From: Halomonas caseinilytica
GTDB lineage: Bacteria; Pseudomonadota; Gammaproteobacteria; Pseudomonadales; Halomonadaceae
NCBI RefSeq assembly: GCF_001662305.1
Contig: NZ_BDEP01000005.1
Coordinates: forward strand, 98,382 to 162,381
Direction: 5' to 3'
Length of the DNA: 64,000 nucleotides
Shown here: positions 26,788-41,834 of the stretch, piece after piece
Layout of the letters: each line of letters starts with the position of its first letter
Position numbering within the stretch: the first letter of the stretch is position 1
Made by a program: the position numbers and the translations under genes
Notes under the pieces: generated by a model
Database searches by the model: none
What the model was told of the DNA's origin: nothing
The model's input: the letters and a program-made list of their open reading frames with translations, nothing else

Positions 26788-26832
26788 GAATCAGCTCTGG
26801 CATTGTTGCATGGGGGACTGCACCGGTGTTCA

Positions 26833-27216
26833 TCAGTCTTCAGCGTCCGGCTCCAGTAGCCGCGCTCCCGGCCCTTCGGCACCCAGCTCATCCCAGGGAT
26901 TGCGTAGCCGGCAGGCATCGATCGAGAGGCAGCCACAGCTGATGCAGTCGCCGAGCTGGTCGAAACGCTTCAATGTGGCGGTCCAGTTCTGCCCGCCAAC
27001 GCTCGGAAAGGCGTTGCCCGTCGTCGGTGGTTACGGTGCGATCCGTCTGAGTATGGCTCGCTGGCACCGTCGCTGGCTACCGGCGTTGCTTCAGCTTTTG
27101 ATCGGGCCCTTCTGTTCGTAGAAGCGGAGGGCGGAAACCGCGACACCGCTGCGTTTTGCGACCTCTCCCACACTCATTGCGGATCGTATGTCCCGGCCGT
27201 TTCGTGTTGTCGTCAT
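26833..27216 (-). pseudogene. soxR: Degenerate soxR (redox-sensing MerR-family regulator)
   Basis: From an ATG complementary to 27214-27216 the translation reads SVGEVAKRSGVAVSALRFYE QKGPIKS, then a TGA stop, then SNAGSQRRCQRAILRRIA. About 35 residues are missing before [19 protein letters not shown], and a one-base frameshift precedes [20 protein letters not shown] with the SoxR [2Fe-2S] cysteines. It ends in [17 protein letters not shown]. The nonsense codon, deletion and frameshift together make this a clear pseudogene. SoxR senses redox-cycling drugs; its presence beside reductase genes suggests a former oxidative-stress module. Confidence 0.88.
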
Positions 27217-27305
27217 GCTTGCCCCCTGGCGTCTGTCTGGTTATTTCCCTCTGGCTATTCCACTCACACTATTCCCCCCATAGCCATTCTCCATGATCCG
27301 GTTCG

Positions 27306-27336
27306 TTGACCTCAACTTAACTTGAGGTAATAGGCT
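27306..27336 (+). promoter_or_regulatory. MerR-type promoter and operator upstream of the FMN reductase gene
   Basis: -35 TTGACC (27306-27311) and -10 TAGGCT (27331-27336) are 19 bp apart. The spacer region contains ACCTCAA-CTTAAC-TTGAGGT (27309-27328), a palindrome with 7-bp arms. The layout and consensus match the promoter at 24156-24186, so the MerR encoded at 24192 is a candidate regulator. The soxR relic next door is the alternative. Confidence 0.7.
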
Positions 27337-27387
27337 CCTCGTGCACCTGATGAAGAATCAGCCAGTGACTGATAAAGGAGATAACAC

Positions 27388-27963
27388 ATGTCCAACCCCA
27401 TCCATGTAGCCGTCATCCTCGGGAGTACCCGCGAAGGCAGACTGTGCGACACCTTGGCGGCGTGGGTCGCCGGAGAACTCGACAAACGTCACGACCTGAC
27501 GTTCTCCCTGATCGATCCGGCCAGCCTCGATTTGCCCGGTTGCCATGAAAACCAGGCCAACGAAGGAATCCACCGCCTCCGGGATCAGCTCGACCGGGCT
27601 GACGCCTTTGTTGTGATCACCCCCGAATACAATCACAGCTTCCCGGCGGCACTGAAGTTCCTGGTCGATTCCAGCTATGCCGAGTGGCAGACCAAGCCCG
27701 TTGGATTTGTCAGTTACGGCGGGATTTCCGGGGGACTGCGTGCGGTCGAGCAGTTGCGGCAGGTGTTTGCGGAACTGCATGCGGTAACGGTGCGCGACAG
27801 CGTCAGTTTCATCAACGTGTGGGAGCAGTTCGCTGATGACGGGAGTCTGGCCAGCCCGGACCGTGCCGTGGCGGCGTTACAGCGGGTGGTGAGCCAGCTC
27901 CACTGGTGGGCGACCGCGACGCGGGCTGCGCGGGAGACAGTGCCATATAGAGAAGTCGCCTAG
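27388..27963 (+). CDS. NAD(P)H-dependent FMN reductase-family flavoprotein
   Basis: The 191-residue flavodoxin-like oxidoreductase has the N-terminal phosphate-binding loop VAVILGSTREGRLCDTLAAW, then the family block FVVITPEYNHSFPAALKFLV and VGFVSYGGISGGLRAVEQLR. Such enzymes reduce FMN, quinones or azo compounds with NAD(P)H. The start is ATG 27388, preceded by AAAGGAG. A MerR-type promoter lies 52 bp upstream. An MBL-fold gene follows 91 bp downstream in the same direction. Confidence 0.92.
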   Translation: MSNPIHVAVILGSTREGRLCDTLAAWVAGELDKRHDLTFSLIDPASLDLPGCHENQANEGIHRLRDQLDRADAFVVITPEYNHSFPAALKFLVDSSYAEWQTKPVGFVSYGGISGGLRAVEQLRQVFAELHAVTVRDSVSFINVWEQFADDGSLASPDRAVAALQRVVSQLHWWATATRAARETVPYREVA

Positions 27964-28054
27964 CAGCTGATGATATTCGTCGGAGTGCTGACAACGTTCG
28001 CAACCGGACGCTTCGAGTCATTCTTGCCAACAAGACGAGACAATGGAGACCACC

Positions 28055-28702
28055 ATGAAACAGATTTTTCCTGACCTGTGGCAAACCGAAGTGGAGAGTC
28101 CGTTCCCGGGGCTGACTACCCACGCTTACCTGCTTACCCGAAAGCAAGGCAATGTGCTCTTCTACAATACCGGCCATGTACATGAGATCGATGCCATGGC
28201 CGAACTGGGTGGCGTAGACTGGCACTTTCTGAGCCACCTGGATGAGCTCGGTAAGTCGCTTCTATGGGTGCGTGAGCGCTACGGCGCGAAATTGGGAGGA
28301 CCTGTCCGCGAACGTGAGGCTTTCGCGGAAATTCTGGAGCCGGACCTGTTGTTCAAGGAGCGGGAAACACTCGCTGGCGGGATTGAGGTGATTCCGACCC
28401 CTGGCCACACCCCTGGCAGTACCTGCTTCCTGGTCAGTTCGACGACCGGGAAGACCTACCTGTTTACCGGCGATACGCTATACAGGAACAGGGTAGGGCA
28501 ATGGAGCAACGGCTTTATGGATGACATGAGTGATCGTGACGCTCTGGTGGCAAGCCTCAGACTGTTGCGTGACCTCAGGCCCGACGTGGTGATTTCCAGT
28601 GCCTTCGCCGACCAGCAGGGTTACGAGGCGATGTCTCCCTCGGACTGGGCCGGCCACGTGGATGGGGCATTGCAGCCGCTGCTGACGAATGAATCGGGCT
28701 AG
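28055..28702 (+). CDS. Metallo-beta-lactamase-fold protein with degenerate metal site
   Basis: The 215-residue MBL-fold protein has a weak usual HxHxDH motif: the equivalent segment reads HFLSHLDELGKSL, retaining one His and the Asp but not the full set. The later motifs TPGHTPGSTCF (His) and LFTGDTLYRN (Asp) are intact, while the final His is replaced in VISSAFADQQG. It may bind one metal, bind none, or act on an unusual substrate. The start chosen is ATG 28055, five bases after GGAGA; an ATG at 28043 overlaps the ribosome site. It probably follows the FMN reductase on the same transcript. Confidence 0.85.
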   Translation: MKQIFPDLWQTEVESPFPGLTTHAYLLTRKQGNVLFYNTGHVHEIDAMAELGGVDWHFLSHLDELGKSLLWVRERYGAKLGGPVREREAFAEILEPDLLFKERETLAGGIEVIPTPGHTPGSTCFLVSSTTGKTYLFTGDTLYRNRVGQWSNGFMDDMSDRDALVASLRLLRDLRPDVVISSAFADQQGYEAMSPSDWAGHVDGALQPLLTNESG

Positions 28703-28779
28703 TATCGGGCCAGTGAAAGCGGTATCGGGGCCGGAGGTACTTTTCGCCCCCTCCGGGCCCTGATGCCAATGTTTTCTCC

Positions 28780-28942
28780 AACCGATGCCCATTTATCCCT
28801 CTTCCATCCTCTCGCGATACATCACTACTCGGTTTCTGCCGTTGCCCGCGTGCATCGAGCGCCGCCATCACGAAGGGCATGGAGCGGCCGTCGGGATTGA
28901 GCATCACCCCGACGGTCGCGGGATCGTCGAACAGGCGGACGA
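28780..28942 (-). other. Possible coding relic downstream of the HxlR gene
   Basis: In the minus frame, [20 protein letters not shown] is followed by RSMPFVMAALDARG and then unlikely sequence. The part GRSMPFVMAALDARG resembles GRSVLFVMAADAEYG at the N-terminus of the nucleosidase at 31615-32262, and 16 consecutive bases (CGCCGCCATCACGAAG at 28861-28876) are shared with that gene. It may be the lost N-terminal end of the truncated nucleosidase at 26581-26787, or a chance match. A short hairpin (28731-28756) without a T-run precedes it. Confidence 0.3.
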
Positions 28943-29290
28943 TCACGGTGCCGAGCGCCGTGACAAAAGTTTCTCGACCTCTGTCATATGTTCCGTTCCC
29001 CAGGCGCAGAGCGGCTTCAAGGCTTCGGCGAGAGTCTGGCCGAACGCAGTGAGGGAATACTCGACTTTCGGCGGAATTTCCTTGAAGTCGAGCCGGTCGA
29101 CGATCCCATCAGCCTCCAGTTCCTTGAGTTGCTGAATGAGCATTTTGTCACTGACATTGCCGATGGCGCGCCTCAGATCGCCATAACGTCGCGCTTGGTG
29201 GGCAAGGTGGAACAAAATCAAAGGTTTCCACTTGCCGCCGATGACAGCCAACGCAGCGTCCAGCCCACAGGTAAAGCCAGATGTTGTCAT
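28943..29290 (-). CDS. HxlR-family transcriptional regulator
   Basis: The 115-residue winged-helix protein of the HxlR type shows [20 protein letters not shown], then [20 protein letters not shown] and [20 protein letters not shown], ending with [20 protein letters not shown]. The single Cys near the N-terminus (Cys8) is the position used for redox or aldehyde sensing in several members such as YodB and HypR. It is divergent from an SDR gene across 105 bp that contain an 11-bp direct repeat, so it likely controls the SDR and itself. Confidence 0.92.
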
Positions 29291-29305
29291 TTCGCATGCT
29301 CCAGT

Positions 29306-29330
29306 AGGTACTTACTAAAAGGTGCATACT
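29306..29330. promoter_or_regulatory. Direct repeat, probable HxlR operator
   Basis: AGGTACTTACT (29306-29316) and AGGTGCATACT (29320-29330) agree at nine of eleven bases and are separated by AAA, giving a 14-bp period. They lie between the divergent hxlR and SDR genes, 16 bp from the hxlR start. Each half also has internal dyad character (AGTA on one side, TACT on the other). Confidence 0.5.
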
Positions 29331-29395
29331 TTAATAAAAGAAAGCAAGTCTCTATTCTCCATTGCGAAGCAGCTATCACTTTCCAGGAGATCGAG

Positions 29396-30142
29396 ATGGG
29401 TAGACTTGAAGGTAAAGTCGCCGTCATAACCGGCGGCAACAGCGGCATCGGTCTGGCGACGGCCAAACGGTTTGTGGCGGAAGGTGCCGAGATTTTCATT
29501 ACCGGCCGTCGTCAGGAGGAACTGGACAGGGCGGTGGAGGCGATCGGCCCCGGAGTGACCGCGGTGCAGGGCGATGTTTCGCATCTGGACGACCTTGAGC
29601 GGCTGTTCGAGACGGTGCGTGCGAAAAGTGGACGAATAGACATTCTCTTCGCCAATGCCGGGCTTGGAAATCTAGCTTCGCTTGGCGCCATCGACGAGGC
29701 ATCGTTCGATTTGACCTTCGACGTCAATGTCAAGGGAACGCTGTTCACAGTGCAGAAGGCTCTGCCGCTTATGCAGGCCGGCGGATCCATCATTCTCACC
29801 GGTTCCACGACCGGTTCGACGGGAACTCCTGCGTTCAGCGTCTACAGCGCGACCAAGGCTGCAATCCGCAACTTTGCCCGAAGCTGGGCCCTGGACCTGA
29901 AAGGGACAGGCATCCGCGTAAACGTGCTCTCTCCCGGCGCCACCGAGACACCCGGCCTCAAGGGCTTGGCAAATGTGGGCGAGGAAGATGCGTTGCTGGA
30001 AGGCTTTGCCTCGCAGATACCTCTTGGTCGTATCGGGCACCCCGAGGAGACGGCGGCGGTGGCGCTCTTTCTTGCCTCGGACGAAAGCAGCTTCATGACT
30101 GGTAGCGAGGTCTTCGCTGACGGCGGAGCCGCACAAGTCTGA
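29396..30142 (+). CDS. Short-chain dehydrogenase/reductase (HxlR-linked)
   Basis: The 248-residue classical SDR has the [10 protein letters not shown] cofactor motif (12-21), FANAGLGN, catalytic Ser in [17 protein letters not shown] with the Tyr and Lys, and the terminal [14 protein letters not shown]. The start is ATG 29396, preceded by AGGAGA; the open frame extends 136 codons upstream through the hxlR gene but is not family-like there. It is probably repressed by the divergent HxlR protein and may detoxify aldehydes or quinones. Confidence 0.92.
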
Positions 30143-30401
30143 TGACCGCTCAAATCCAGATCCTGAACTTTCTTGCTTGGGGCCTTTTCTCCGAGCGGCA
30201 TGCTCTGCTGCGCTTCAGCTCGCGAGTAGCCCCTGCCCGACGAGAATGCCCGTCTCAAACACCAACTGGCCGAGACGTCGGAAGAGCCTGAAATCACAAA
30301 AAAGCGGCCGCGTACTGCGCCAAGCCCCTCAAGTGAAGTACGTGTTCAGGCGCTGTGGCGCGGTCAGAATCGGAGGCAGAAGGCCGATGGAAGGAAAGAG
30401 C

Positions 30402-31361
30402 ATGAAGGCTGCATATTATGATGTTCCAGGCGGGCCGGAGGTCCTGAGCTACGCAGAAGTCGAGGCTCCGGGTTGTCCCGAGGATGGAGTTCTCCTCCGG
30501 GTGGAGGCAATCTCGATCGAGGGGGGCGATCTCATCAATCGGGCGACGGCGGCGCCTCAGGCAGCAGGCCACGTTCCTGGCTATGCGGCCTCGGGTGAGA
30601 TCGTCGAGGTTGGTGCGAAGGTTCGCGACCGCTTCATCGGGCAAAAGGTGACCTCATTCGACATGGGCGGATCCCATGCCGAATTGCGTGCCGTGAAGGC
30701 CTCGCGGACATGGATCGTGCCGGACGGGTTGGAGATGGCGGCTGCGGCCGCCTTGCCCATCTCGTTCGGAACCGCTCATCACAGCCTGTTCGCGCGCGGC
30801 AACCTGGCCGACGGCGAGACCATGCTCGTGCAGGGCGGAGCGGGCAGCGTCGGGGTCGCGGTGATCCAACTGGCACATCGCGCCGGTTCGAAGGTGTTGG
30901 CAACCGTCTCGGGCGCGGATCGCGCCGCGCGACTGCGGATTTATGGGCTGGACACCGCAATCGACTACCGCTCAGAGGATGTGACTGCGGCCGTCATGCG
31001 GCTGACCGACGGCCGCGGCGTGGATCTGGTCGTCGATCCCGTCGGCTCCACGCTCGCGGAATCGCTTGCCGCACTCCGGCCCGAGGGACGTCTGGTCTTC
31101 GTTGGCAATGCAGGGCGTGCGTCGCTGGACCTGGACCTCTGGCCCGCCTTGCAGGCCAACCAGACGCTTCTGGGTGTGTTCATGGGCAGCCAGCTCGAAA
31201 AACCCGACGTCCACAGGACGGTCGACGACATGTTGCGCCTGGCCGCCACCGGTGAGCTGGAGGTTCCCCTCGATCGACGGTTTTCGCTTTGCGAGGTCGC
31301 GGCGGCACATGCCTATGCCGAGAACAATTCCATTCTGGGCCGGGTCGTCCTTGTCCCTTGA
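30402..31361 (+). CDS. Zinc-independent quinone oxidoreductase / MDR-family alcohol dehydrogenase
   Basis: The 319-residue medium-chain dehydrogenase/reductase is of the quinone oxidoreductase (Qor-like) type. It shows an N-terminal GroES-like fold (YDVPGGPEVLSYAEVEAPGC) and the Rossmann motif VQGGAGSVGVAVIQLAHRAG, then DYRSEDVTAAVMRLTDGRGV and DLVVDPVGSTLAES. No catalytic or structural zinc cysteines are visible, which favours an NADPH:quinone reductase. The start chosen is ATG 30402, preceded by AAGGAAAG; an ATG five codons earlier is possible. The 259 bp between the SDR and this gene contain no convincing gene. Confidence 0.9.
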   Translation: MKAAYYDVPGGPEVLSYAEVEAPGCPEDGVLLRVEAISIEGGDLINRATAAPQAAGHVPGYAASGEIVEVGAKVRDRFIGQKVTSFDMGGSHAELRAVKASRTWIVPDGLEMAAAAALPISFGTAHHSLFARGNLADGETMLVQGGAGSVGVAVIQLAHRAGSKVLATVSGADRAARLRIYGLDTAIDYRSEDVTAAVMRLTDGRGVDLVVDPVGSTLAESLAALRPEGRLVFVGNAGRASLDLDLWPALQANQTLLGVFMGSQLEKPDVHRTVDDMLRLAATGELEVPLDRRFSLCEVAAAHAYAENNSILGRVVLVP

Positions 31362-31430
31362 CCTGCAAGACCCGGGACCGCCGTGAAGGCATGTGACGGA
31401 AATTGCGTCATGGACAGGAACGCGCGTCGA

Positions 31431-31568
31431 GAGGACAGTGACGACGTCTTCTCGGGCAACCTGTGCCCGCTGGGGCTCAAGGCGGTTACCCGCATCTCCC
31501 TGGCGCACTACAACAGCGTGGATGAAGTCGACGCCTGCGTGGAGGCTTTATCTGAAGTGTTGCCGTAG
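31431..31568 (+). pseudogene. 3' stub of a class V aminotransferase / cysteine desulfurase-like gene
   Basis: The plus-strand frame gives GLKAVTRISLAHYNSVDEVD and then ACVEALSEVLP before a TAG. This is the C-terminal pattern of class V PLP-dependent enzymes (Arg-Ile-Ser, His-Tyr-Asn, EVD, EAL). Nothing of the PLP-binding body precedes it; the upstream sequence is unrelated. It looks like the right-hand scar of a recombination event next to the nucleosidase repeat. Confidence 0.6.
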
Positions 31569-31614
31569 GGCTGATGCATCGAGATACCGCGCCCGCACGT
31601 GGGAAGGTGGCGCG

Positions 31615-32262: not shown

Positions 32263-32471
32263 CCCGAGAGTCTCCCGCAGCCCATCAATCTCATCATCAT
32301 GGCGGGAGGCAGCGTTAGCGCCAAGCGCTGAGTAGCCTGGCTGGTGCTGGTTTGGATGTTCTGCGTAGGCAGACGTGGATTAATGGTTGAAGCCGAAAAT
32401 GTCGCCAAACGGTGACATTCTGTATCCCCCCTTCTAGGCTGACTGATAACCCAACCGGCAAGAGACTGCTG

Positions 32472-32813
32472 ATGGCCAATCACATCGCCTCCCGCAACAT
32501 CTTGCACCCGCATGCACGCAGGGGGCGGATATATTATTGCGATACCCTGCTCGCCGATACCTGCGACGTCATTGAGCTGCGCGAGAAAGACTATCCACAG
32601 CGGCAATATCTGCCGCGATCCGATGTGGATATGTCAAAGCTCACCATCTCCGAAACTATGACCCACTGCCCCTTCAAGGGCGGCAGCACCTACTACTCGC
32701 TGCCCGATATTGCCGATGTGGCCTGGAGCTATAAATGGCCAATTGACGAGATGCAACCCATCGCCGGCCTAGTGGCATTTGACGCGTACAAGGTGACGGA
32801 GAGCGTGGAATGA
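32472..32813 (+). CDS. DUF427 family protein
   Basis: The 113-residue DUF427 protein shows RIYYCDTLLADTCDVIELRE, then QRQYLPRSDVDMSKLTISET, MTHCPFKGGSTYYSLPD and VAWSYKWPIDEMQPIAGLVA with the family's late FDAYKV. DUF427 domains are small beta-rich folds of unknown function. The start is ATG 32472; upstream codons in frame lack a ribosome site. It is the last typical host-like gene before the AT-richer cassette region. Confidence 0.85.
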   Translation: MANHIASRNILHPHARRGRIYYCDTLLADTCDVIELREKDYPQRQYLPRSDVDMSKLTISETMTHCPFKGGSTYYSLPDIADVAWSYKWPIDEMQPIAGLVAFDAYKVTESVE

Positions 32814-32998
32814 AGGCTAGTGTAGTGGCTCAGCCGTATTATCTAGTGCGCGTGTTTATTGGGATCCTATTGCAGGGTAGATGGATGTTCTCTTTGAAAA
32901 TAATGGGTTATCGGAGTGGTATAAAAAATTGAACGCGCATGCTCATTTAAGTGGAAAACGAGTGTGCTCGCTAATACCTATAAGGGCGAAGGAGGAAT

Positions 32999-33535
32999 AT
33001 GCATATAGCATGTCTTGCTTGGGGGTCATTGGTGTGGGATGCCCGCGACCTGGCTCTATCTTCGCCGTGGTATAAGGATGGCCCAAAAGTACCTGTGGAG
33101 TTTGCCCGACAGTCGAGTGGTCATAGACTGACACTTGTTCTTGGCCGATCGTTTCAGGAAATGCCTTCGTTATGGGCTTGGATGGATGGTGATGATCTAG
33201 ATCGCGCGATAGAGAGTCTTCGTCGAAGGGAGGAGACAGCGACCAAACGAATTGGAGTCTGGAGAACTGAGGAGAAAGCACCAGGCCTTATTCCAGGTTT
33301 GCCAGCTTGGGCAATAGCCAGAGGTGCTGATACCGTGATTTGGACTGCATTGTCGCCGAAATTCCAAGGTGAGGATGGCAGGGTTCCTTCCGTTGACGAG
33401 GCCTTGGCCTACTTTCGTTCACTGGGCCAAGAATACCAGCAAGGCGCTGAAGAGTATGTCAGAAAAGCTCCGGGGCAGATACGGACACCATACCGAGCGG
33501 AATTCGAAATGCACCTGAGATGGTTCCCAGAATAG
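32999..33535 (+). CDS. Hypothetical protein of a conserved YGSL-like (gamma-glutamylcyclotransferase-fold?) family, first cassette gene
   Basis: The 178-residue soluble protein starts MHIACLAWGSLVWDARDLAL and continues WYKDGPKVPVEFARQSSGHR and LTLVLGRSFQEMPSLWAWMD. The AWGSLVWD beginning resembles the YGSL nucleotide/substrate loop of gamma-glutamylcyclotransferase-like folds, and I recognise it as a conserved but uncharacterised family. Codon use is markedly less GC-rich than in flanking host genes. It starts at ATG 32999 after AAGGAGG. A good attC-like site begins 10 bp beyond its stop, so it looks like an integron cassette gene. The preceding 185 bp are AT-rich with no gene seen. Confidence 0.75.
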   Translation: MHIACLAWGSLVWDARDLALSSPWYKDGPKVPVEFARQSSGHRLTLVLGRSFQEMPSLWAWMDGDDLDRAIESLRRREETATKRIGVWRTEEKAPGLIPGLPAWAIARGADTVIWTALSPKFQGEDGRVPSVDEALAYFRSLGQEYQQGAEEYVRKAPGQIRTPYRAEFEMHLRWFPE

Positions 33536-33544
33536 CGGGCATAG

Positions 33545-33607
33545 ACTCAACCACAGCGTCAAAGCGGAACGGCTTTTCCGCTGGCGCTACAAATCTGGGC
33601 GTTAGGG
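33545..33607 (+). other. attC-like integron recombination site
   Basis: ACTCAAC (33545-33551) fits the RYYYAAC end and GTTAGGG (33601-33607) is close to the GTTRRRY end, 63 bp overall. Between them are nested arms: AGCG pairs with CGCT, and AGCGGAA pairs with TTCCGCT around CGGCTT. The spacing and imperfect hairpin are those of an attC site, placed between two same-strand cassette genes, 10 bp after one stop and 10 bp before the next start. Confidence 0.75.
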
Positions 33608-33617
33608 ATTGGCAGGG

Positions 33618-34376
33618 ATGAGTGAAAGATCACCAGATAAGTTTGCGCGAATTACGGCAGTCATATCGCTAGTCATTGCGATAGCTGCCGTTGCCATACC
33701 CTATGTTCAACAAAAAGCCGCTCTCATGCAGCAACAGGAGCAGTTTGATAAGCTCCATCGGGAAGATGTCTCTATCAAGTTGAATCCGTACTTAAAGGGA
33801 GTTATTTACATTACAGGGACAAAGCTCGAACGCTTGGGAAGCGTTGTTCAGGTTCCGTGGGAGCTCACCATTTCGAACACCGGGAGCCGACAACTTTCTA
33901 TCAAAAATTACGATCTGACGCGTGGTGATTCACCCGGGACAACGTTCTACTCAGATATTGATGGTGGGTTGCTAACCCTGGGTTCCCAGCCAGTTGGCTA
34001 CCCAATAATTCTAAAACCAGGTGAAATGCGGAAATTCTTGCTTTTCGTTGGGATTACTGTGCCCGACAAAGTAGTTGAAATACTGAAAGGTATAAACGAG
34101 GGGGATAATATCGATAGGGAGGTGGCCACTGCTGCATTAGCGAAAGAGGGGTTAGATCTATACGGAAACGAGGTCAGCTATAAAGAATTTGAAGGTGGCG
34201 CCTATTTTCTATCCGTTGATGAAAAGAATATGAATGGGCAAAGGTTCTGGTGTGTAGTGCACACTGGTCGCGGTAATAGTTTCGTAGTTTCGGCCAGTGA
34301 ATACGAAAGGCCGAGTGACAATGATCCCTTACTAAGGGATGCCGCCGACCGCTTTTCCGGTGCGGGGCGTCTCTAA
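33618..34376 (+). CDS. Hypothetical single-pass membrane protein, cassette gene
   Basis: The 252-residue protein is not recognised. Residues about 10-30 form one hydrophobic helix (FARITAVISLVIAIAAVAIP) followed by a short coiled stretch (QQKAALMQQQEQFDKLHRED). The remaining 210 residues look like a beta-rich globular domain (VPWELTISNTGSRQLSIKNY). The topology would place the large domain on one side of the inner membrane. Start ATG 33618 is chosen over TTG 33609, which is almost inside the attC site. Low GC, same strand, and attC-like ends on both sides support a cassette origin. Small membrane proteins in such arrays are sometimes defence effectors, but nothing specific supports that here. 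Confidence 0.7.
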   Translation: MSERSPDKFARITAVISLVIAIAAVAIPYVQQKAALMQQQEQFDKLHREDVSIKLNPYLKGVIYITGTKLERLGSVVQVPWELTISNTGSRQLSIKNYDLTRGDSPGTTFYSDIDGGLLTLGSQPVGYPIILKPGEMRKFLLFVGITVPDKVVEILKGINEGDNIDREVATAALAKEGLDLYGNEVSYKEFEGGAYFLSVDEKNMNGQRFWCVVHTGRGNSFVVSASEYERPSDNDPLLRDAADRFSGAGRL

Positions 34377-34403
34377 AAGGGCAGGTGAGACTAGGCGTTA
34401 TAT
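34341..34403 (+). other. Degenerate attC-like site (right end only clear)
   Basis: GGCGTTATAT with core GTTATAT (34397-34403) has the same right end as the attC-like site at 39585-39591. An internal block, ACCGCTTTTCCGGTG (34349-34363), aligns with the arm region of the site at 33545-33607. No RYYYAAC left end is visible; the site appears merged with the 3' end of the preceding gene. Confidence 0.4.
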
Positions 34404-34415
34404 GCCCTAAGAGGT

Positions 34416-35069
34416 ATGAGTGTGACTAAAAATCAACTGGCAAAAAGAATTGATCCATTCGATGCGTCGCTTCGGTATATGCTTGTTGTGGTGTTCCCGA
34501 AAAGCACATCAAAGAACTTTTCACTAGTTCTGAATATTGCAGAAGGAGCTGAGCAGTATGCGGTAGCAGACATAAATGGGAAGTCCACATATTTTGTCTG
34601 CTTTGGTGAAAGTCAGTCAGATGCAGGCCGAGCAGTTGCGATATTGGATTATGTGAGAACCTGGAAGGGAGTGCAGGTTTTTTCTAAGGGTAAGCTGCTG
34701 CAGAACTCTTATCATATGGCACCGGTGCTTAACTGCTATCTTGAATCGCAATCGTGTCGAGATTACCAAGCTCACTGCTACAAGGTAATTGATGACCCAT
34801 TCTCTGAAGAAGTTGAGGGGCGGGGTACATTATCGATAAGGGTAGTGGACAAACCGTCTATAAAGCACGAGGTTGAGATGGATCGTTACCTGTTCCCCTG
34901 TAACTTTTTATTCAATCGATTTAGGTTTCAGAAGGATCACCCATCTTCGATTGCTGACCAGATTCAGGCATCCGCTGTAAAGAGTGTCTGTGACTGGTGT
35001 CCAAATTTTGAGCCAGTCAAATGGAGGAAAGTGGGAACGCGAAAGGTTCTCAAGGATTTCTTCGATTGA
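34416..35069 (+). CDS. Hypothetical soluble protein, cassette gene
   Basis: The 217-residue protein is not recognised. It has no signal or membrane segment. Segments YMLVVVFPKSTSKNFSLVLN and GKSTYFVCFGESQSDAGRAV suggest alternating strands and helices in the N-terminal half. The C-terminal half is rich in Cys and aromatic residues (HCYKVIDDPF, SVCDWCPNFEPVKWRK). Start ATG 34416 lies 12 bp after an attC-like core, and another attC-like site begins 18 bp after the stop. Low GC and lack of family resemblance fit an integron cassette. Confidence 0.7.
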   Translation: MSVTKNQLAKRIDPFDASLRYMLVVVFPKSTSKNFSLVLNIAEGAEQYAVADINGKSTYFVCFGESQSDAGRAVAILDYVRTWKGVQVFSKGKLLQNSYHMAPVLNCYLESQSCRDYQAHCYKVIDDPFSEEVEGRGTLSIRVVDKPSIKHEVEMDRYLFPCNFLFNRFRFQKDHPSSIADQIQASAVKSVCDWCPNFEPVKWRKVGTRKVLKDFFD

Positions 35070-35087
35070 GAAAGTGCATGACAATAG

Positions 35088-35151
35088 TGTTAACTCGGGC
35101 TGGCTTCTACGCTGCTTCTCCGAAGCCAGCCGGTTACGCTAAGCGTTATAC
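35088..35151 (+). other. attC-like integron recombination site
   Basis: TGTTAAC (35088-35094) and GTTATAC (35145-35151) flank a perfect 10-bp inverted repeat, GGCTGGCTTC (35098-35107) with GAAGCCAGCC (35122-35131). The overall size of 64 bp and the GCGTTATAC right end match the site at 39514-39591. The left end departs from RYYYAAC at one position. Confidence 0.65.
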
Positions 35152-35171
35152 TGCATTGCATGAGAGTGTGT

Positions 35172-35200
35172 TTTCGACCTTTAGCGGGAATTGGTCGAAA
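35172..35200 (+). promoter_or_regulatory. Inverted repeat upstream of the OLD-nuclease/helicase pair
   Basis: TTTCGACC (35172-35179) and GGTCGAAA (35193-35200) form perfect 8-bp arms around 13 bases, followed by a very AT-rich stretch before the gene start at 35267. It could be an operator or a leader hairpin controlling expression of the nuclease/helicase cassette. No regulator gene is obvious nearby. Confidence 0.5.
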
Positions 35201-35266
35201 GTGTAAAAAGGAGTAATTTTAAAATTAATATCCTCTTGTTTCTGGTCCTTCTTTAAGGTTTTGCAC

Positions 35267-37420
35267 ATGAAAATCACTTCCTTTTCTTTAAAAAATTACC
35301 GGCGTCTGGCCAATGTAACCTTGGTGCTTGATGATAAAACAACGGTTCTTGTCGGCGCTAACAATAGTGGTAAAACCTCCTGCATTGGAGCGTTACATAC
35401 ATTCCTGAGAAGCCCAGACAACCTAAACGTTAGAGATATATCGAAGCAGAATTGGAAGGCAATCCAAAAGCTAGGTGAACAAGTCGAAGAGGAATTTCCT
35501 ACTAACGAGGAAATGGAGGACCTATCCGAAGATCTTGTCATGTTGTTGCCGAGCTTAGATATCGAGATAACGGCGGAAGCGAATGAGGCGTATAAGGTTC
35601 GTGATATTCTCCCTGACTTGGAATGGAGTGGTGGTGCTCTATCTGTTCGTATAAACTATGAAGTGACCGATGTCTCAAAAATGTTTCGCGAGTTTGTTGA
35701 TACAAGAGTTATAGTTTCCGGGCATGAGGGTGAGGTAAGTCTGTGGCCTAAGGATCTATGTGATTTCTTGGAGAAAGGCCGAAACTTCAGTAAGTTCATA
35801 AAGCAAAAGCACTACGTCTTGAGCAAAGGGGCCGAGACTAGTGAGGACGAAATTTTGCAGCCTCTCAAATCTGAAGCTTTGAAAAAATTAATTCGAGTAG
35901 ATGCTATATCCGAACAACGTGGACTAGGTGCTGAAGATGACGCAGACCAAAAAGGACCATATTCAGAAAAGCAGCGGCTCAACAAGCTACTTCGAGACTA
36001 TTATGAGGGTATTTTGAACCCAGAAGATTCCCCGGAGGCTGACGACCTCAAAGTCTTGGGGCAACAGCAAAATTTAGAAAAGGACTTTACCAAAAGGCTG
36101 AACAAGCAGTTTGAATCTCCTTTCGAAGAGTTGAAAAGTATGGGTTACCCTGGTATCGGTGGTAATCCAACTGTTGAAATTGCCGCGAAAGTTAGCGGAA
36201 CGGATGCTTTGCAAAAATCGTCATCGGTTCGATACCGTCTTGATGACAAGGAGGAAGAGTTTCTTCCTGAAAGTTACCTTGGGCTTGGCTACCAGAATCT
36301 AATATACCTAACCTTTAGGCTTTTAGAATTTCGCGACAAATGGATGCGTGTTGGCAAATCGGCTTCTTCAGAGGATAATGTCGAAGATCAGATTGAACCA
36401 ATTCACTTAGTATTGCTTGAAGAGCCGGAAGTTAATCTTCACGCTCAGGTTCAGCGTGTTTTTATATCGAAAGCTTACGATACTTTGCGGAATCATTCCG
36501 ATTTGCGCGACCAGGAAGAAAAGAAAGATAAGCCTGAATACCAGACTCAGCTCGTGATTAGTACTCACTCCAGTCATATTATTAATGACATTGACTTCAA
36601 AGATTTACGTTACTTTCGACGAAATGATCCGAATGCGTCCATCGCGATGGACCATACATCAATTGCAAATATGTCAGAACTTTTTGCGCACGCGAAAGAC
36701 GAGCTTTTGTTTGTAAGAAAACACTTGAAACTCACTCATTGTGATATCTTCTTTGCCGATGGCGTTATATTCGTTGAGGGGCAGGCTGAGCGCCTTCTGG
36801 TGCCAGAGTTTATTTCCAATAGCTTCCCAGACTTATCTAATCGGTACATCTCTATGCTTGAGGTGAGCGGTGCTCACACGCACAAATACAGAGAGTTAGT
36901 CGAGAAGCTTGGGGTCGCGACTCTAGTGCTGACTGATCTTGACTCTGTTGATAACCAAGGAAAGTCTTGCTTTCCGCAAAGAAATTCTGATCAAAAGAGC
37001 AATAATGATACTTTGAAGATGTGGCATCCACGGAAAGAAACTGTTGATGAACTAGTAGACTTACCAAAAACAGGACATGCGACAATAAGCCAAGGTGCGC
37101 CGCTTTACGTTGCCTTCCAGAAGCCGGCTCTGATTTGTGGGGAGGAAGCTTTGTCCCGAACTTTTGAAGATGCTTTGATTTTGGCTAATTTTGATTATGA
37201 GTATTTCCAGAAAAAACCCAAGATAAAAGCTGCCCATGAAAGTGGTGGTGAATCGTTGTCAAAGTCACTTTATGAATATGTGCAAGGATTGAATAAGGGG
37301 GACTTTGCCTTTGATTGCCTATTCCATCTCGCGGAGAATGAGTCGAATAGCTTCACTCCCCCCGAATACATGAGCGATGGCCTCAAATGGCTGGCAGCTC
37401 AGCTTTCACCAAAAACATAG
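35267..37420 (+). CDS. gajA: OLD-family ATPase-TOPRIM nuclease (GajA-like)
   Basis: This is a 717-residue overcoming-lysogenization-defect (OLD) type protein. The N-terminal ABC-like ATPase has Walker A GANNSGKT (30-37), a signature-like LGLGYQN (338-344), Walker B LVLLEEPEVNLHA (381 onward) and H-loop STHSSH (432-437). The C-terminal TOPRIM nuclease has its Glu in VEGQAE (503-508) and acidic pair in VLTDLDS (557-559). Pairing with a UvrD-like helicase 9 bp downstream is the Gabija architecture; GajA nicks DNA when nucleotides fall during phage growth. At 717 residues it is longer than the roughly 580-residue prototype. Start ATG 35267 is preferred over TTG 35261, based on AAGG spacing. Confidence 0.85.
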   Translation: MKITSFSLKNYRRLANVTLVLDDKTTVLVGANNSGKTSCIGALHTFLRSPDNLNVRDISKQNWKAIQKLGEQVEEEFPTNEEMEDLSEDLVMLLPSLDIEITAEANEAYKVRDILPDLEWSGGALSVRINYEVTDVSKMFREFVDTRVIVSGHEGEVSLWPKDLCDFLEKGRNFSKFIKQKHYVLSKGAETSEDEILQPLKSEALKKLIRVDAISEQRGLGAEDDADQKGPYSEKQRLNKLLRDYYEGILNPEDSPEADDLKVLGQQQNLEKDFTKRLNKQFESPFEELKSMGYPGIGGNPTVEIAAKVSGTDALQKSSSVRYRLDDKEEEFLPESYLGLGYQNLIYLTFRLLEFRDKWMRVGKSASSEDNVEDQIEPIHLVLLEEPEVNLHAQVQRVFISKAYDTLRNHSDLRDQEEKKDKPEYQTQLVISTHSSHIINDIDFKDLRYFRRNDPNASIAMDHTSIANMSELFAHAKDELLFVRKHLKLTHCDIFFADGVIFVEGQAERLLVPEFISNSFPDLSNRYISMLEVSGAHTHKYRELVEKLGVATLVLTDLDSVDNQGKSCFPQRNSDQKSNNDTLKMWHPRKETVDELVDLPKTGHATISQGAPLYVAFQKPALICGEEALSRTFEDALILANFDYEYFQKKPKIKAAHESGGESLSKSLYEYVQGLNKGDFAFDCLFHLAENESNSFTPPEYMSDGLKWLAAQLSPKT

Positions 37421-37429
37421 GGATAAGTT

Positions 37430-39397
37430 ATGTCAGAAGAATTCTACTTGGCGGACATGAAACCCGTAGATTATGACAGTAGCGTTGATAAATCTATCAG
37501 AGAGTGCCTGCGCATAGGTTCCGGAAAAGGCTTTATCACTTTCGCTGGGGCGGGATCAGGAAAGACCTATTCTCTAAAAGAGGCTCTTGATTTTCTAAAG
37601 AAAGAGTATTCTGGTGATTTTGTTCGTCAAGGAAAGAAAGTTGCCGTTGTAACATTTACGAACAATGCAGCCAATGAAATCGTGGACCGGGTTGAGCAAA
37701 GTCCTATCTTTGCGGTTTCGACGATTCATAGTTTTTGCTGGTCGGCTATTTCCGGTTTTAATGAAGATATTCGAAAGTGGTACTTGGAAACAATTCCCGC
37801 TGATTTAGAAAATCTCAAGGAAAAAGAAAGGAAAGGCCGCGCAGGAAAGGCTTCCGATGCTCGAAAAAGGGATATCTGCCGCCTGACTAAGAAAATGGAA
37901 TGGTTAGCGCAACCTCGCTCATTCGTTTACGATCCAAACGGCGTCAACTCTTCCCAAAATTCGCTGTCGCACGCAGATGTTTTGAAACTTTTCTATAACT
38001 TATTGACTACCAAGCCTATGATGGAAGAAATCATAGTAAACAAATTCCCTTTCATATTCATCGACGAAAGCCAAGATACTAATAAAGACGTAGTTGGTGC
38101 ATTCTTTGATCTGCAAAAAAATAAGTCGGATAAAGTAGTTGTCGGTCTGTTTGGGGATACTATGCAGCGTATCTTTGGCGGAGGAGAACCTGAGCTTGGT
38201 AAGACTAAGCCAAGCGGCTGGACTACTTTCGACAAAAAAATGAACCATCGCTCAGCGCGGCGCATCGTTGGTTTGGGTAATCAAATTCGTCGTGAGGATG
38301 ACAGACTTAATCAATTTGCCAAAGATGGAGCTGATGAAGGTTTCGTTCGCTATTTTTTACTGTCGCACGGTGTTTCAGATAAAGACAAAGTCGAAGCGGA
38401 AATTCGTGAGGCTATGGCGAAAGTTACGGGTGACGCGGACTGGGAAGACACTCAATCCAAAGAAACTGCTATTTTGCTTTTGGAACATAAAATGGCTGGG
38501 CGTCGGCTTGGTTTTCATGATCTTTGGGACAAGCTTTCAAAATCAGACAAGATTAAATATCGGATCTCTGAAGGTGAAAGTGCCGAGCTGAATTTCTTTT
38601 CTAGCATTGTTTTTCCTTTGGCTGAGGCGAGCCGGAAGAAAAAGCGAGCCGAATTGATGTATATCTTGAGAGAAAACAAGTCTCCGCTGTTGGAAGCCAG
38701 GGTGCTTGACGAAAATAAGGACGATCCGCTCGCGCTTGCTCGAGCCGCGGAACATGCATTTAGAAATGTGGTTTCAAATGATAAGGTCAGTTTTCGCTCA
38801 GTTTTAGAAGTACTTGCTAAGTACGATCTGCTTATAATTCCAGAAAAATTACAGTCGTTTGTGACAAATTCAGAAGAAACTGAGGTTGAACCAGAGTCAG
38901 ATCAAATGGGAGATAGGCCGGAGGTTGAACCAGAACCTGAAGAGCGGGATAATAGCGAGATTGCTGCTTGGGCTGAAGCTTTGGAGACTGATTTCTTCCA
39001 GATTCAGAACTATAAGAACTACATTGATGAGAATTCAATTTTTCGAACCCATCAAGGCGTGAAGGGTAATGAGTTCGAGCGTGTAATGGTTGTCATGGAT
39101 GATGATGAAGCAGGCGGATTCTTGTTTTCCTATGAGCAGTATTTTGGCGCTAAGGAGATTTCTCGAGAAAGTCAAAAGAAACGAAGTTCTGGAGAAGAAA
39201 CTGGTTTGGACCGCACTCGCCGGTTATTTTATGTCACATCCACTCGTGCAAAGAGTAGTTTAGCTCATGTGATTTATACATCCGATGTGACTAAAGTGAA
39301 GGAAAGCCTTATAGAAAAAAATTGGCGCGAAAATCTGAAGTCATTGAGGTGCAAAGTCACCTCTGAATCCACATTTAATGTTGATTCGCAAATTTAA
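37430..39397 (+). CDS. gajB: UvrD/Rep-like superfamily 1 helicase (GajB-like)
   Basis: The 655-residue SF1 helicase has Walker A FAGAGSGKTYSL (about 38-49), motif Ia VVTFTNNAANEI, motif II FIFIDESQDTN (208-218), motif III-like GLFGDTMQRIF, motif V HQGVKGNEFERV (541 onward) and motif VI RRLFYVTSTRAKSSL (about 600). An acidic linker (EVEPESDQMGDRPEVEPEPE) separates the later motifs. In Gabija, GajB is thought to hydrolyse nucleotides or DNA ends generated by GajA. The gene starts 9 bp after gajA, preceded by AGGGAT. It is longer than the roughly 490-residue prototype GajB, so a Gabija-like variant is the careful label. An attC-like site follows. Confidence 0.85.
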   Translation: MSEEFYLADMKPVDYDSSVDKSIRECLRIGSGKGFITFAGAGSGKTYSLKEALDFLKKEYSGDFVRQGKKVAVVTFTNNAANEIVDRVEQSPIFAVSTIHSFCWSAISGFNEDIRKWYLETIPADLENLKEKERKGRAGKASDARKRDICRLTKKMEWLAQPRSFVYDPNGVNSSQNSLSHADVLKLFYNLLTTKPMMEEIIVNKFPFIFIDESQDTNKDVVGAFFDLQKNKSDKVVVGLFGDTMQRIFGGGEPELGKTKPSGWTTFDKKMNHRSARRIVGLGNQIRREDDRLNQFAKDGADEGFVRYFLLSHGVSDKDKVEAEIREAMAKVTGDADWEDTQSKETAILLLEHKMAGRRLGFHDLWDKLSKSDKIKYRISEGESAELNFFSSIVFPLAEASRKKKRAELMYILRENKSPLLEARVLDENKDDPLALARAAEHAFRNVVSNDKVSFRSVLEVLAKYDLLIIPEKLQSFVTNSEETEVEPESDQMGDRPEVEPEPEERDNSEIAAWAEALETDFFQIQNYKNYIDENSIFRTHQGVKGNEFERVMVVMDDDEAGGFLFSYEQYFGAKEISRESQKKRSSGEETGLDRTRRLFYVTSTRAKSSLAHVIYTSDVTKVKESLIEKNWRENLKSLRCKVTSESTFNVDSQI

Positions 39398-39513
39398 GAA
39401 TCTATAGAGTCGAATGAATAGACAACTGATCCGTTGAGTTGTGATGTTATGACGAATTAAGTGAAAGGTCCGATTATGGAAGTTTAGGGTGGCTTGAGGC
39501 TTGCGCAAGCTCC

Positions 39514-39591
39514 GTATAACAAAGCGCTAGCGCTGCTGTTGGGCAAGTTTTCCGCTTCGCTCCAAATTTGCCGCTGAGTGCGGCGTTATAT
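39514..39591 (+). other. attC-like integron recombination site, end of the array
   Basis: GTATAAC (39514-39520) and GTTATAT (39585-39591) are near reverse complements and bound 78 bp. Inside, GGCAAGTTT (39542-39550) and AAATTTGCC (39564-39572) form imperfect arms around a roughly 13-base loop, and the right end reads GCGGCGTTATAT. This is the clearest attC by eye. It lies 116 bp after gajB and 71 bp before the 3' end of recD; the gap 39398-39513 has a small ACAACT/AGTTGT hairpin but no gene. Confidence 0.78.
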
Positions 39592-39662: not shown

Positions 39663-41834
39663 TTAACTCCGCAACCCACTTACCCTCATCACTCTCCGCT
39701 GCGCGGCGTCCAGTAGTTGCCCTCGGCCGATTTCCACCAGTGTCAGCCAGTGGCGGGCGCGGGTGATGCCGGTGTAGACGAGTTCCCTTGTGAGAATCGG
39801 GTTGGGGGCGTCGGGGAGTACCAAGGCGGCGTGGGTGAATTCCGAGCCTTGGGATTTGTGTACGGTCATGGCGAACACGGTTTCCACGGCTTGCAGGCGT
39901 GAGGGCAGTACCCACTTGATGCGGTCGCTGCCGTCGCCGGCGGGGAAGGCGACGCGCAGCAGGCGTGGGTTGTTGTCGCTTGGGTTGGCATCGGGGCGCG
40001 GCATGGCCAGCGTGATGCCGATATCGCCGTTCATCAGCCCGAGGCCGTAGTCGTTCTTGGTCACCAGCACCGGGCGGCCGGGGTACCAGAGGTGGCGGCC
40101 GTCCTGGCTGTCGATCAGTCCTTCCTTTTCCAGTGCCTGACGCACGCGTTCGTTCAGGCCTTCCACACCCCAGGGGCCGCGCCGCAAGGCGCACAGCAGT
40201 TGGAAGTGGCCGTGGGCTTCGAGCACTTTTCTGGCCCAGTCGTCGAAGGCCGTTTGATCGGCGTCGTCCGCCGGGCGTTGCTCGGCCATGATCGAGAGAA
40301 AGTGACGATAGCCGACCGGAGGCGTTCTGCTGGCGGCGGCGGTACTTGTCTCGGCCTTGGGAAAGCCTTCGGGATAGCCGGTCACCGTGAGGCGGGCCAG
40401 GCGGCGTTCGTCGTCCTTGGGTAGCTTCAGGTGCGAGAGGTCGGCGAAGCCGGCGCTGAGAGCCTGCTGAATCGCCCGGCGCTGCTCGGCGGGTTCGTTC
40501 TCTCGATCGAGCGGGGCGTTGATGGCGGCGGCCAGTTGGCCGATGCCGCTGTCGGCGGTGAAGCGGTGGCTGACGCGCAGCATGGCGATGCTCTGGTCGA
40601 GCGGCTGGCCGTCGGCGTCGAGATAGTCGCCGGGCAGTGTCTGGCCGGTGGCATCATTCAGCCAGTCGGCGGTGGCCGGGGTGTAGTGGCCGCCATCGGC
40701 GCGGACGCAGAGGTCGCCGAGGATCGAGCCGGCTTCCACCGAGGCGAGCTGGTCCTTGTCGCCGAGCAGGACCAGCCGGGCGTGGGGCGGCAGCGCTTCG
40801 AGCAGGGCGGCCATCATACCCACGTCGACCATCGAGGCTTCGTCGACCACCAGCATGTCGAGCGGCAGCGGATTATGGCGGTCGTGGCGGAAGCGTCGTG
40901 TATCGGGGCGTGAGCCGAGCAGGCGGTGTAGCGTGGAAACGTCCTGCGGCACGGCCTTGTGGAGCCGTGCGGCGGGGCTTGTCTCGCCATCGCTCGGTGT
41001 TGTCTCGATCTCGGCCTGGCTGGCCAGGGCGCCGAAGGGCAACTGGCCGACCTGGCCGGCGATGGATTCGTTGAGCCGGGCGGCGGCCTTGCCGGTGGGC
41101 GCGGCGAGGCGGATGCGCAGGGCGGGCTCGCCGGCGCCCAGGGTGAGGGCCTGGAGCAGGGCGAGCAGGCGCACTACGGTAGTGGTCTTGCCGGTGCCGG
41201 GGCCGCCGGTGATCACCGCGAAGCGCGAACGCGTGGCCAGGGCGCAGGCGGTCTTCTGCCAGTCGAGCTCGTCGCGGGGCGCGAAGAGGGTATCGAGCAG
41301 CGGCCGCAGGCTGGCGGCTTCCATGGTCGTTTCATCGACCGTGAGCCGCGCTGAGATCCGGCTGTGGATATCCTGCTCGTGCTGCCAGTAGCGGCGCATA
41401 TACAGCCGGGGTCGTTCGGCGTCGCCATCGAGCACCAGGGGCGTGGCGCCGGGGCCGTCGCCGACCAGCTCAGGCTGGTGCAGGGCGGCGCGCCAGGTGG
41501 CGACATCGAGCCCGGCCATCACCTGGCTGGGCAGTGGCGGCGGTTCCTCCAGGCTGTCCCCCTCGGGGGGCAGCGAGAGGGCGAGGTCCGGTGTTTCCAG
41601 GGTGAGGGCGAGGTCGAGGCAGACATGCCCGCGCCCGAGCTGGTGGCTGGCGAGTGCCGCCGCCAGCAGCAGTGCGGGTGAGGCCTCGCTTACCTCGCGA
41701 CGCAGGAAATCGGCGAAGGCGCGGTCGAGCGAACGCAGCCAGCCGCGCGCCACCCAGCGCTCGAGCAGGGCGAACAGCGCTTCGTGATCGTCGAGGGCGC
41801 GCTCGGGGGAAACAGTCGTGATATCCGGCGTCAT
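39663..41834 (-). CDS. recD: RecBCD subunit RecD (5'-3' helicase)
   Basis: This 723-residue protein has the RecD helicase core: Walker A VITGGPGTGKTTT (about 207-219), the second motif LAAPTGKAAARLNESI, Walker B LDMLVVDEASMVDVGMM, VLLGDKDQLASVEAGSILGD, and late motifs YGLGLMNGDIGI and FAMTVHKSQGSEFTHAALVL. RecD is the fast 5'-3' motor of the RecBCD end-processing enzyme. Its start overlaps the recB stop (ATGA at 41831-41834). Its 3' end faces the integron-like cassette array. Confidence 0.96.
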   Translation of the reverse strand: MTPDITTVSPERALDDHEALFALLERWVARGWLRSLDRAFADFLRREVSEASPALLLAAALASHQLGRGHVCLDLALTLETPDLALSLPPEGDSLEEPPPLPSQVMAGLDVATWRAALHQPELVGDGPGATPLVLDGDAERPRLYMRRYWQHEQDIHSRISARLTVDETTMEAASLRPLLDTLFAPRDELDWQKTACALATRSRFAVITGGPGTGKTTTVVRLLALLQALTLGAGEPALRIRLAAPTGKAAARLNESIAGQVGQLPFGALASQAEIETTPSDGETSPAARLHKAVPQDVSTLHRLLGSRPDTRRFRHDRHNPLPLDMLVVDEASMVDVGMMAALLEALPPHARLVLLGDKDQLASVEAGSILGDLCVRADGGHYTPATADWLNDATGQTLPGDYLDADGQPLDQSIAMLRVSHRFTADSGIGQLAAAINAPLDRENEPAEQRRAIQQALSAGFADLSHLKLPKDDERRLARLTVTGYPEGFPKAETSTAAASRTPPVGYRHFLSIMAEQRPADDADQTAFDDWARKVLEAHGHFQLLCALRRGPWGVEGLNERVRQALEKEGLIDSQDGRHLWYPGRPVLVTKNDYGLGLMNGDIGITLAMPRPDANPSDNNPRLLRVAFPAGDGSDRIKWVLPSRLQAVETVFAMTVHKSQGSEFTHAALVLPDAPNPILTRELVYTGITRARHWLTLVEIGRGQLLDAAQRRVMRVSGLRS

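Follow-up and report, generated by a model that had tools for sequence, protein, structure and literature searches.

The array beside recD

We analyzed a 64-kb stretch of the draft genome of Halomonas caseinilytica (3.57 Mb in 38 contigs), hereafter called the window, which corresponds to bases 98382-162381 of contig C5 and finishes where that contig ends. Between a DUF427 gene and recD, the window contains what appears to be an integron array without an integrase gene, which starts with an attI-like site and whose last cassette is a complete match to Gabija, a predicted anti-phage system. All genes from 32.9 to 39.6 kb lie on one strand, and the guanine-cytosine (GC) content per kilobase is 43-51% across 33-40 kb, against 57-72% in the surrounding kilobases. 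Strand and composition thus agree with an earlier examination of the letters alone (the sequence-only reading), which had described low-GC genes of one orientation parted by attC-like sites. The sites themselves fared unevenly: two score well in the attC model described below, one is marginal and one was not recovered.

The DUF427 gene is the host-side neighbour of the array (32475-32813, forward strand; PF04248, E 9.6e-24, scored on the longer frame 32412-32810), and its position is conserved, as it stands beside recD in relatives as well. The features that follow are likewise on the forward strand: the attI-like site with a decayed core (32928-32980), gene A (32999-33535, 178 amino acids), gene B (33618-34376, 252 amino acids), gene C (34416-35069, 217 amino acids), and the Gabija genes gajA (35267-37420) and gajB (37430-39397), with attC or attC-like sites after each of A, B, C and gajB. 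The array is abutted by the host gene recD on the reverse strand (39663-41834; PF21185, E 1.4e-29), after which come recB and recC, named from their open reading frames (ORFs) by eye. Rfam at gathering thresholds gave no match in the window.

attC sites

IntI integrases recombine the folded bottom strand of an attC site with attI or with another attC, by which a cassette is placed or removed. We searched for attC sites with a covariance model (R1), for which the classical attC architecture was placed by hand on one sequence, and which differs from the model used by IntegronFinder. The source loci were the DNA next to integron integrases at 20 places in the genus; a motif scan left 38 candidates after filtering, and 28 of these, drawn from 13 loci, were aligned, the window itself being kept out. 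The pairing in R1 is supported, as 83.6% of cells were paired versus 59.7% in shuffles, and changes on both sides were found in 167 versus 69.6 cells. It should be noted that the sites were chosen by motif, which favours canonical ones, and that decayed sites may therefore escape the model. A plain consensus scan (RYYYAAC/GTTRRRY) gave 20 hits in the window, only one of which corresponds to an attC supported by R1, and the covariance model was used instead.

On both strands of the whole 64 kb, R1 gave three matches in total at E ≤ 10. The best (39514-39591, 49.5 bits, E 9e-11) is the last attC, which forms the 3' edge of the array and lies exactly where the sequence-only reading had put it. 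The second (35076-35151, 38.3 bits, E 1e-7) establishes a site previously given as 35088-35151, but moves its start 12 bases upstream, the supposed outer box belonging to the inner arm; the R' box of this site, GTTATAC (35145-35151), marks where the Gabija cassette starts. The third, which overlaps the end of gene B (34326-34403, 12.5 bits), had been called a degenerate site at 34341-34403 and is indeed marginal, with E 0.95 in the 64 kb and E 0.1 if the 6.9 kb alone is searched. A covariance-model search of the segment, proposed earlier as a check, thus recovers two sites strongly, and these two, 4.4 kb apart and accompanied by the marginal third, constitute the cluster of at least two attC sites by which clusters of attC sites lacking an integrase (CALINs) are defined. 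The stretch at 33545-33607, on the other hand, does not qualify as the clear attC for which it had been taken. Its frame is AAC/GTT-like and most shuffles fold less well (z -2.37), so that it may be a decayed attC.

The attI-like site and the integrase

The stretch outside intI in the same 20 integrase loci supplied 20 sequences (mean identity 79%) for a model of attI (R2). At E ≤ 10 this model has two matches in the window, one at 32928-32980 (21.5 bits, E 1.1e-5) and one to the reverse of the same, partly palindromic site (12.5 bits, E 0.0075). The site lies immediately before gene A and points in the same direction as the attC sites. Because it stands at the 5' edge, the array looks like an integron without intI and not like attC sites alone. 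The sequence-only reading, which had proposed a CALIN with no integrase in view, was right about the integrase: a tblastn search of the 64-kb window with the IntI of this genome gave nothing at E ≤ 1e-3, and none of the 14 TIGR02249 matches listed for the genome falls inside the window. The attI-like site, however, sets the array apart from a cluster of attC sites only.

The rest of the genome, which had been suggested as a place to look for intI and further attC sites, does contain them. Contig C7 carries an intact IntI (395.9 bits versus a cut-off of 265), the only one above the cut-off in the genome, so that intI beside attI, as in a complete integron, is not found at the array. Elsewhere in the genome, R2 matches only C28:74569-74634 and its palindromic reverse (150 of 659 candidates scored), and R1 has four matches at E ≤ 0.001 on C28. 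As the genome-wide attC search likewise scored 150 of 2718 candidates, weak sites of both kinds may remain among the others. The IntI frame starts 48 bases from the start of C7, and the C28 attI lies 138 bases from the end of C28. Because this end resembles the stretch between attI and intI in relatives, we infer that C7 and C28 are probably neighbours, which together make up the genome's integrase-bearing integron.

The Gabija cassette and its relatives

The last cassette of the array comprises 4,440 bases (35146-39585), its boundaries being set by the usual G/TT rule. It contains gajA, which encodes a protein of 717 amino acids with an OLD-like ATPase and a TOPRIM nuclease domain (PADLOC PDLC00093, E 5.4e-239; PF13175, PF20469), and gajB, which encodes a UvrD-like helicase of 655 amino acids (PADLOC PDLC00111, E 7.4e-224; PF00580). 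Both proteins are full length with respect to the PADLOC models, the genes are 9 bases apart, and the unit is flanked on both sides by attC recombination boxes (35076-35151 and 39514-39591).

A scan of named genomes yielded three relatives of GajA, in Idiomarina, Pseudoalteromonas and Chromohalobacter, and all three share the 5' edge of the unit. The blastn matches start at window positions 35145, 35141 and 35129, respectively, that is, at the R' box or at most 16 bases before it, and identity in the three genera is 65-69% over the 120 bases after the R' box versus 38-45% over the 120 bases before it. Furthermore, GajA is 80-87% identical in genome pairs whose RecD pieces are 48-63% identical; GajA being far more alike than RecD, the unit has passed between bacterial families. 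The 3' edge is an attC in Idiomarina, a relic in Chromohalobacter and absent in Pseudoalteromonas. The Idiomarina match runs to window position 39521, is broken by about 1.6 kb and resumes at 39529-39591, the break being an insertion with an IS110-family transposase (PF02371; L021 10250-11845) that splits the Gabija attC directly after its first box; an intI fragment (residues 26-153, 48% identity) lies just upstream, and three more attC sites lie downstream. The Chromohalobacter match stops at 39330, and gajB is followed there by an attC-like relic (30.3 bits, E 5.5e-5), and an attI precedes the gene before the unit. Judged from these relatives, which share its starting edge in three other genera, the Gabija cassette likely moves as one unit.

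Plasmids were considered as a source and rejected: 315 plasmid records match GajA, all at less than 60% identity and the best listed at 41%, so that this collection holds no close copy.

Several other observations concern Gabija. In an integrase-linked array of another genome (G004; L058 2252-6508), a divergent gajA-gajB pair (about 28-29% identity) lies between two attC sites, so that Gabija was apparently turned into a cassette on more than one occasion. Another divergent Gabija (about 27-28%) is present at the recD flank of G077. The gajA leader (35145-35266) is conserved across genera and includes an inverted repeat near 35170-35200, noted by eye, which is possibly regulatory.

Genes A, B and C

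Searches of Pfam, PADLOC and NCBIfam gave nothing for these three genes at E ≤ 0.01. Their protein hits (87 listed for A, mostly unnamed; 16 for B; 40 for C) are for the most part unnamed or hypothetical proteins on short contigs. Gene C was found in this genome only, among 293 genomes of the order, and gene B in one further genome out of 250 of the family (40% identity), at a locus with a weak attC-like match (14.4 bits, E 0.016 in 3.7 kb). These genes may have arrived as cassettes in the same manner as Gabija, although support for the movement of single cassettes concerns the Gabija unit only. The earlier proposal that the segment was assembled cassette by cassette, by an integrase elsewhere in the genome or now lost, is accordingly sustained in part: the intact IntI elsewhere and the recurrence of Gabija with the same start and other neighbours speak for it, and for genes A-C it is inferred.

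The recD flank in related species

A comparison of the recD 3' flanks of related strains had also been recommended. We found recD in 85 of 90 genus genomes and fetched its 3' side for 20, of which 18 flanks were usable, as the sequence of the other two (L076, L084) breaks off less than 0.8 kb from recD. The flank is variable, its content differing from species to species, and none of the 20 has a blastn match longer than 60 bases to window positions 32.9-39.6 kb. R2 matches at E ≤ 1e-5 occur in 6 of the 18 flanks (L072, L077, L083, L085, L086, L089) and R1 matches at E ≤ 0.01 in 7 (L071, L072, L077, L085, L086, L089, L090; in L090 no DUF427 match frames the interval). A tblastn search of the 20 flanks with the IntI of this genome gave no match. 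Other species therefore show the design of the window at their recD flank, an attI that lacks intI and is followed by attC sites. In the two species closest by RecD, G025 (98%) and G021 (97%), the flank contains an ATPase with a Ppl-like end and AbiU, respectively, each followed by an attC (61.6 and 48.1 bits) and then by recD.

Defence genes were sought among 20 large ORFs chosen by size in 14 of the 18 flanks (L074, L083, L087 and L090 were left out). PADLOC matches were present at E ≤ 1e-8 in 13 of the 14 and at E ≤ 1e-50 in 10, figures that do not amount to an enrichment, as no background intervals were scanned; the exception was L079, without a match among the ORFs scanned. Among the models matched were AbiU (twice), Lamassu, a type V retron reverse transcriptase, a helicase model, Gabija, DRT3, an AriA-like model, type I restriction-modification and Avs5. 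The presence of Gabija next to recD both here and in G077 is no more than suggestive, as the slot holds many unrelated defence genes.

Next to the insert, four of the 20 flanks (L073, L078, L082, L083) carry part of the recD 3' end a second time, and it follows that other kinds of insertion use the site too. In three flanks the attI on the recD side is an extended palindrome that R2 matches on both strands (L085 5623-5696, L086 4839-4909, L089 7476-7549). Outside the array, window positions 26789-31610, which by eye contain oxidoreductase-like and regulator-like genes, are missing from most relatives, 14 of the 20 flanks passing directly from 26.8 kb to 31.6 kb.

attI sites apart from intI

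Sites matching R2 are widespread in the genus. At E ≤ 1e-3 they occur in 85 of 90 genomes, this one included; palindromic doubles account for some of the 340 matches. Across the family, R2 matches at E ≤ 1e-6 are present in 193 of 250 genomes and in 17 of 24 genera. IntI matches at E ≤ 1e-60 are present in 33 of the 90 genomes, 27 being above the family cut-off; 52 of the 57 genomes without such a match keep attI. For 30 of the 150 attI matches listed, an IntI match lies at most 2.5 kb away; the remaining 120 lack one, although this number includes cases of contig breaks (6 lie within 2.5 kb of a contig start, contig ends being unchecked, and the C28 site is among the 120).

Single-contig genomes, where contig breaks play no part, contain 22 of the listed orphan attI sites, and 21 of these, all but the weakest, were followed up in 20 regions. 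R1 found 76 attC sites at E ≤ 0.05 in these regions, every one on the strand expected from the attI and 70 on the expected side, and 19 of the 20 regions have at least one attC on that side. Remnants of intI are present in 8 of the 20, which weakens the idea that orphan attI sites are a wholly new dispersed element. Some arrays or loci have paired attI sites (L020 4475-4542 and 12568-12636; L115 2593 and 6751; L116 2505 and 12002), which could be tandem integrons or attI sites carried within arrays. In the parts of the openly licensed literature that were searched, we found no description of attI standing without intI, an absence that means little.

Origin and fate of the array

Based on the sequence comparisons above, we consider it probable that the region between 32928, where the attI-like site begins, and 39591, where the last attC ends, is an integrase-less integron array, built beside recD by an IntI-type integrase that is encoded elsewhere or has been lost, with a predicted anti-phage system as its last cassette. 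According to this model, IntI would have brought the Gabija cassette in via its attC, with attI or another attC as the target; genes A-C would have entered in the same way, and the integron's own intI, if it was ever present, would have been deleted. It is likely that the array was assembled cassette by cassette and is now decaying, with Gabija alone still lying between two well-formed attC sites. For that reason, the intact IntI on C7 is predicted to be still able to excise the Gabija cassette. Further cassettes, by contrast, would be unlikely to enter at the front, given the decayed attI core. Published work on another Gabija system further leads to the prediction that GajA together with GajB would block the circularisation of linear phage DNA that is left untouched by RecBCD, and that phages that block RecBCD would thereby become targets of Gabija.

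Several results do not favour this model. Firstly, the recombination sites are in part poor: R1 does not recover 33545-33607 even with filters off and at E ≤ 10, and because the site at 34326-34403 is marginal as well, the status of genes A-C as separate cassettes is unproven. The match to attI is weak and has CTATA as its core, versus a CTGTT that is invariant in the 20 model sites, and even the best attC, 39514-39591, when folded alone as single-stranded DNA reaches a z of only -1.31, with 22 of 200 shuffles equal or better. Secondly, the evidence from other genomes is incomplete. For genes B and C no place in another array could be established, and the Pseudoalteromonas match stops at 39416, before the attC, at a locus where R1 and R2 are both without a match at E ≤ 1. 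Thirdly, G025 and G021 lack an IntI match at E ≤ 1e-60 and yet have different cargo, which needs no presently acting integrase. Finally, no promoter-like site was found in the Gabija leader.

These points raise the question of whether the array is simply a fossil. A once-complete integron might have lost its integrase long ago and undergone no site-specific movement since, the differences between species resulting from unequal loss of cassettes and from homologous exchange of the interval between recD and DUF427. The decayed attI core, the unrecovered and the marginal attC, the intI remnants beside 8 of 20 orphan attI sites and the retention of attI in 52 of 57 genomes without an IntI match all accord with such a history, and passages of PMC9024848 propose CALINs as degraded integrons. 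On the other hand, both attC sites that flank Gabija are well conserved, the genome has an intact IntI, and the Gabija cassette has been carried between bacterial families with its edge kept. We regard pure decay as a serious possibility, but one somewhat short of even chances.

Alternatively, the cassettes may have gone directly into a chance genomic site (attG) near recD and not into attI. Such secondary-site insertion has been described in print, as cited in passages of PMC12444791, and several attC-bearing recD flanks have no attI match (L071) or only weak ones (L090). However, an attI match marks the front of the array here, and 6 of the 18 usable recD flanks of relatives have one too, which renders this explanation improbable. 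Least plausible of all is an ordinary genomic island integrated at the recD 3' end, with the attC-like sites being incidental: the second, partial recD ends in four relatives and the defence-gene inserts without attC at E ≤ 0.01 (L078, L080, L082, L088) would suit it, but the window interval has neither a second recD end nor a recombinase evident among its ORFs, and its sites follow integron order and direction; for the window this origin is disfavoured.

The integrase-less integron array that we prefer can also be placed in a broader and far more speculative scheme, in which the genus has a distributed integron, that is, many lone attI docking sites filled in trans by a single integrase, resident or borrowed. 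The docking site beside recBCD would then have come to receive defence cassettes, and some of these, Gabija among them, would read the state of RecBCD. We consider this scheme doubtful at present.

The array shows how a defence system of two genes and 4.4 kb can travel between bacterial families as a single cassette. Since integrase-less arrays can here be recognised by their attI, bench tests on definite sites become possible to decide between fossils and arrays that are still supplied in trans.

Comparison with known systems

Like the array described here, sedentary chromosomal integrons contain defence genes as cassettes, and the key paper on this subject is reportedly that of Darracq et al. 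2025, cited in PMC13064858; unlike them, our array is without an integrase.

In the latter respect it resembles CALINs, the integrase-less attC clusters that passages of PMC9024848 and PMC12444791 present as proposed degraded integrons that can be mobilised in trans. CALINs near recD are reported for Xanthomonas cissicola in a section of PMC12444791, and according to a part of PMC7923331, hypersaline metagenomes contain CALINs, and not full integrons, at most sites. In contrast to CALINs, which are usually taken as degraded integrons and are defined by attC alone, our array is headed by an attI-like site, and integrase-less arrays can here be recognised by their own attI. Since IntegronFinder, as a passage of PMC9024848 states, seeks no attI outside class 1, such a front would go unreported by it.

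With respect to its last cassette, the array agrees with known Gabija systems in having gajA and gajB adjacent and both full length. Gabija and attC are both mentioned in PMC12342005 and in PMC8649781, in the latter at separate places. The Gabija system of PMC12407980 is located in a pathogenicity island of Pseudomonas aeruginosa PA14, whereas here it forms a single 4.4-kb integron cassette beside recBCD. Passages of that paper describe that Gabija of P. aeruginosa acts on linear DNA not handled by RecBCD, and that a strain with high Gabija expression is inviable without recB. The cassette lies beside the genes of the very repair complex whose blockage reportedly licenses Gabija (PMC12407980). 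Finally, the site resembles the core defence hotspots of P. aeruginosa, which, as part of PMC10250203 sets out, are fixed chromosomal slots whose defence systems vary between strains; it differs from them in its position, between recD and the DUF427 gene, and in the attI and attC sites that frame it in several species.

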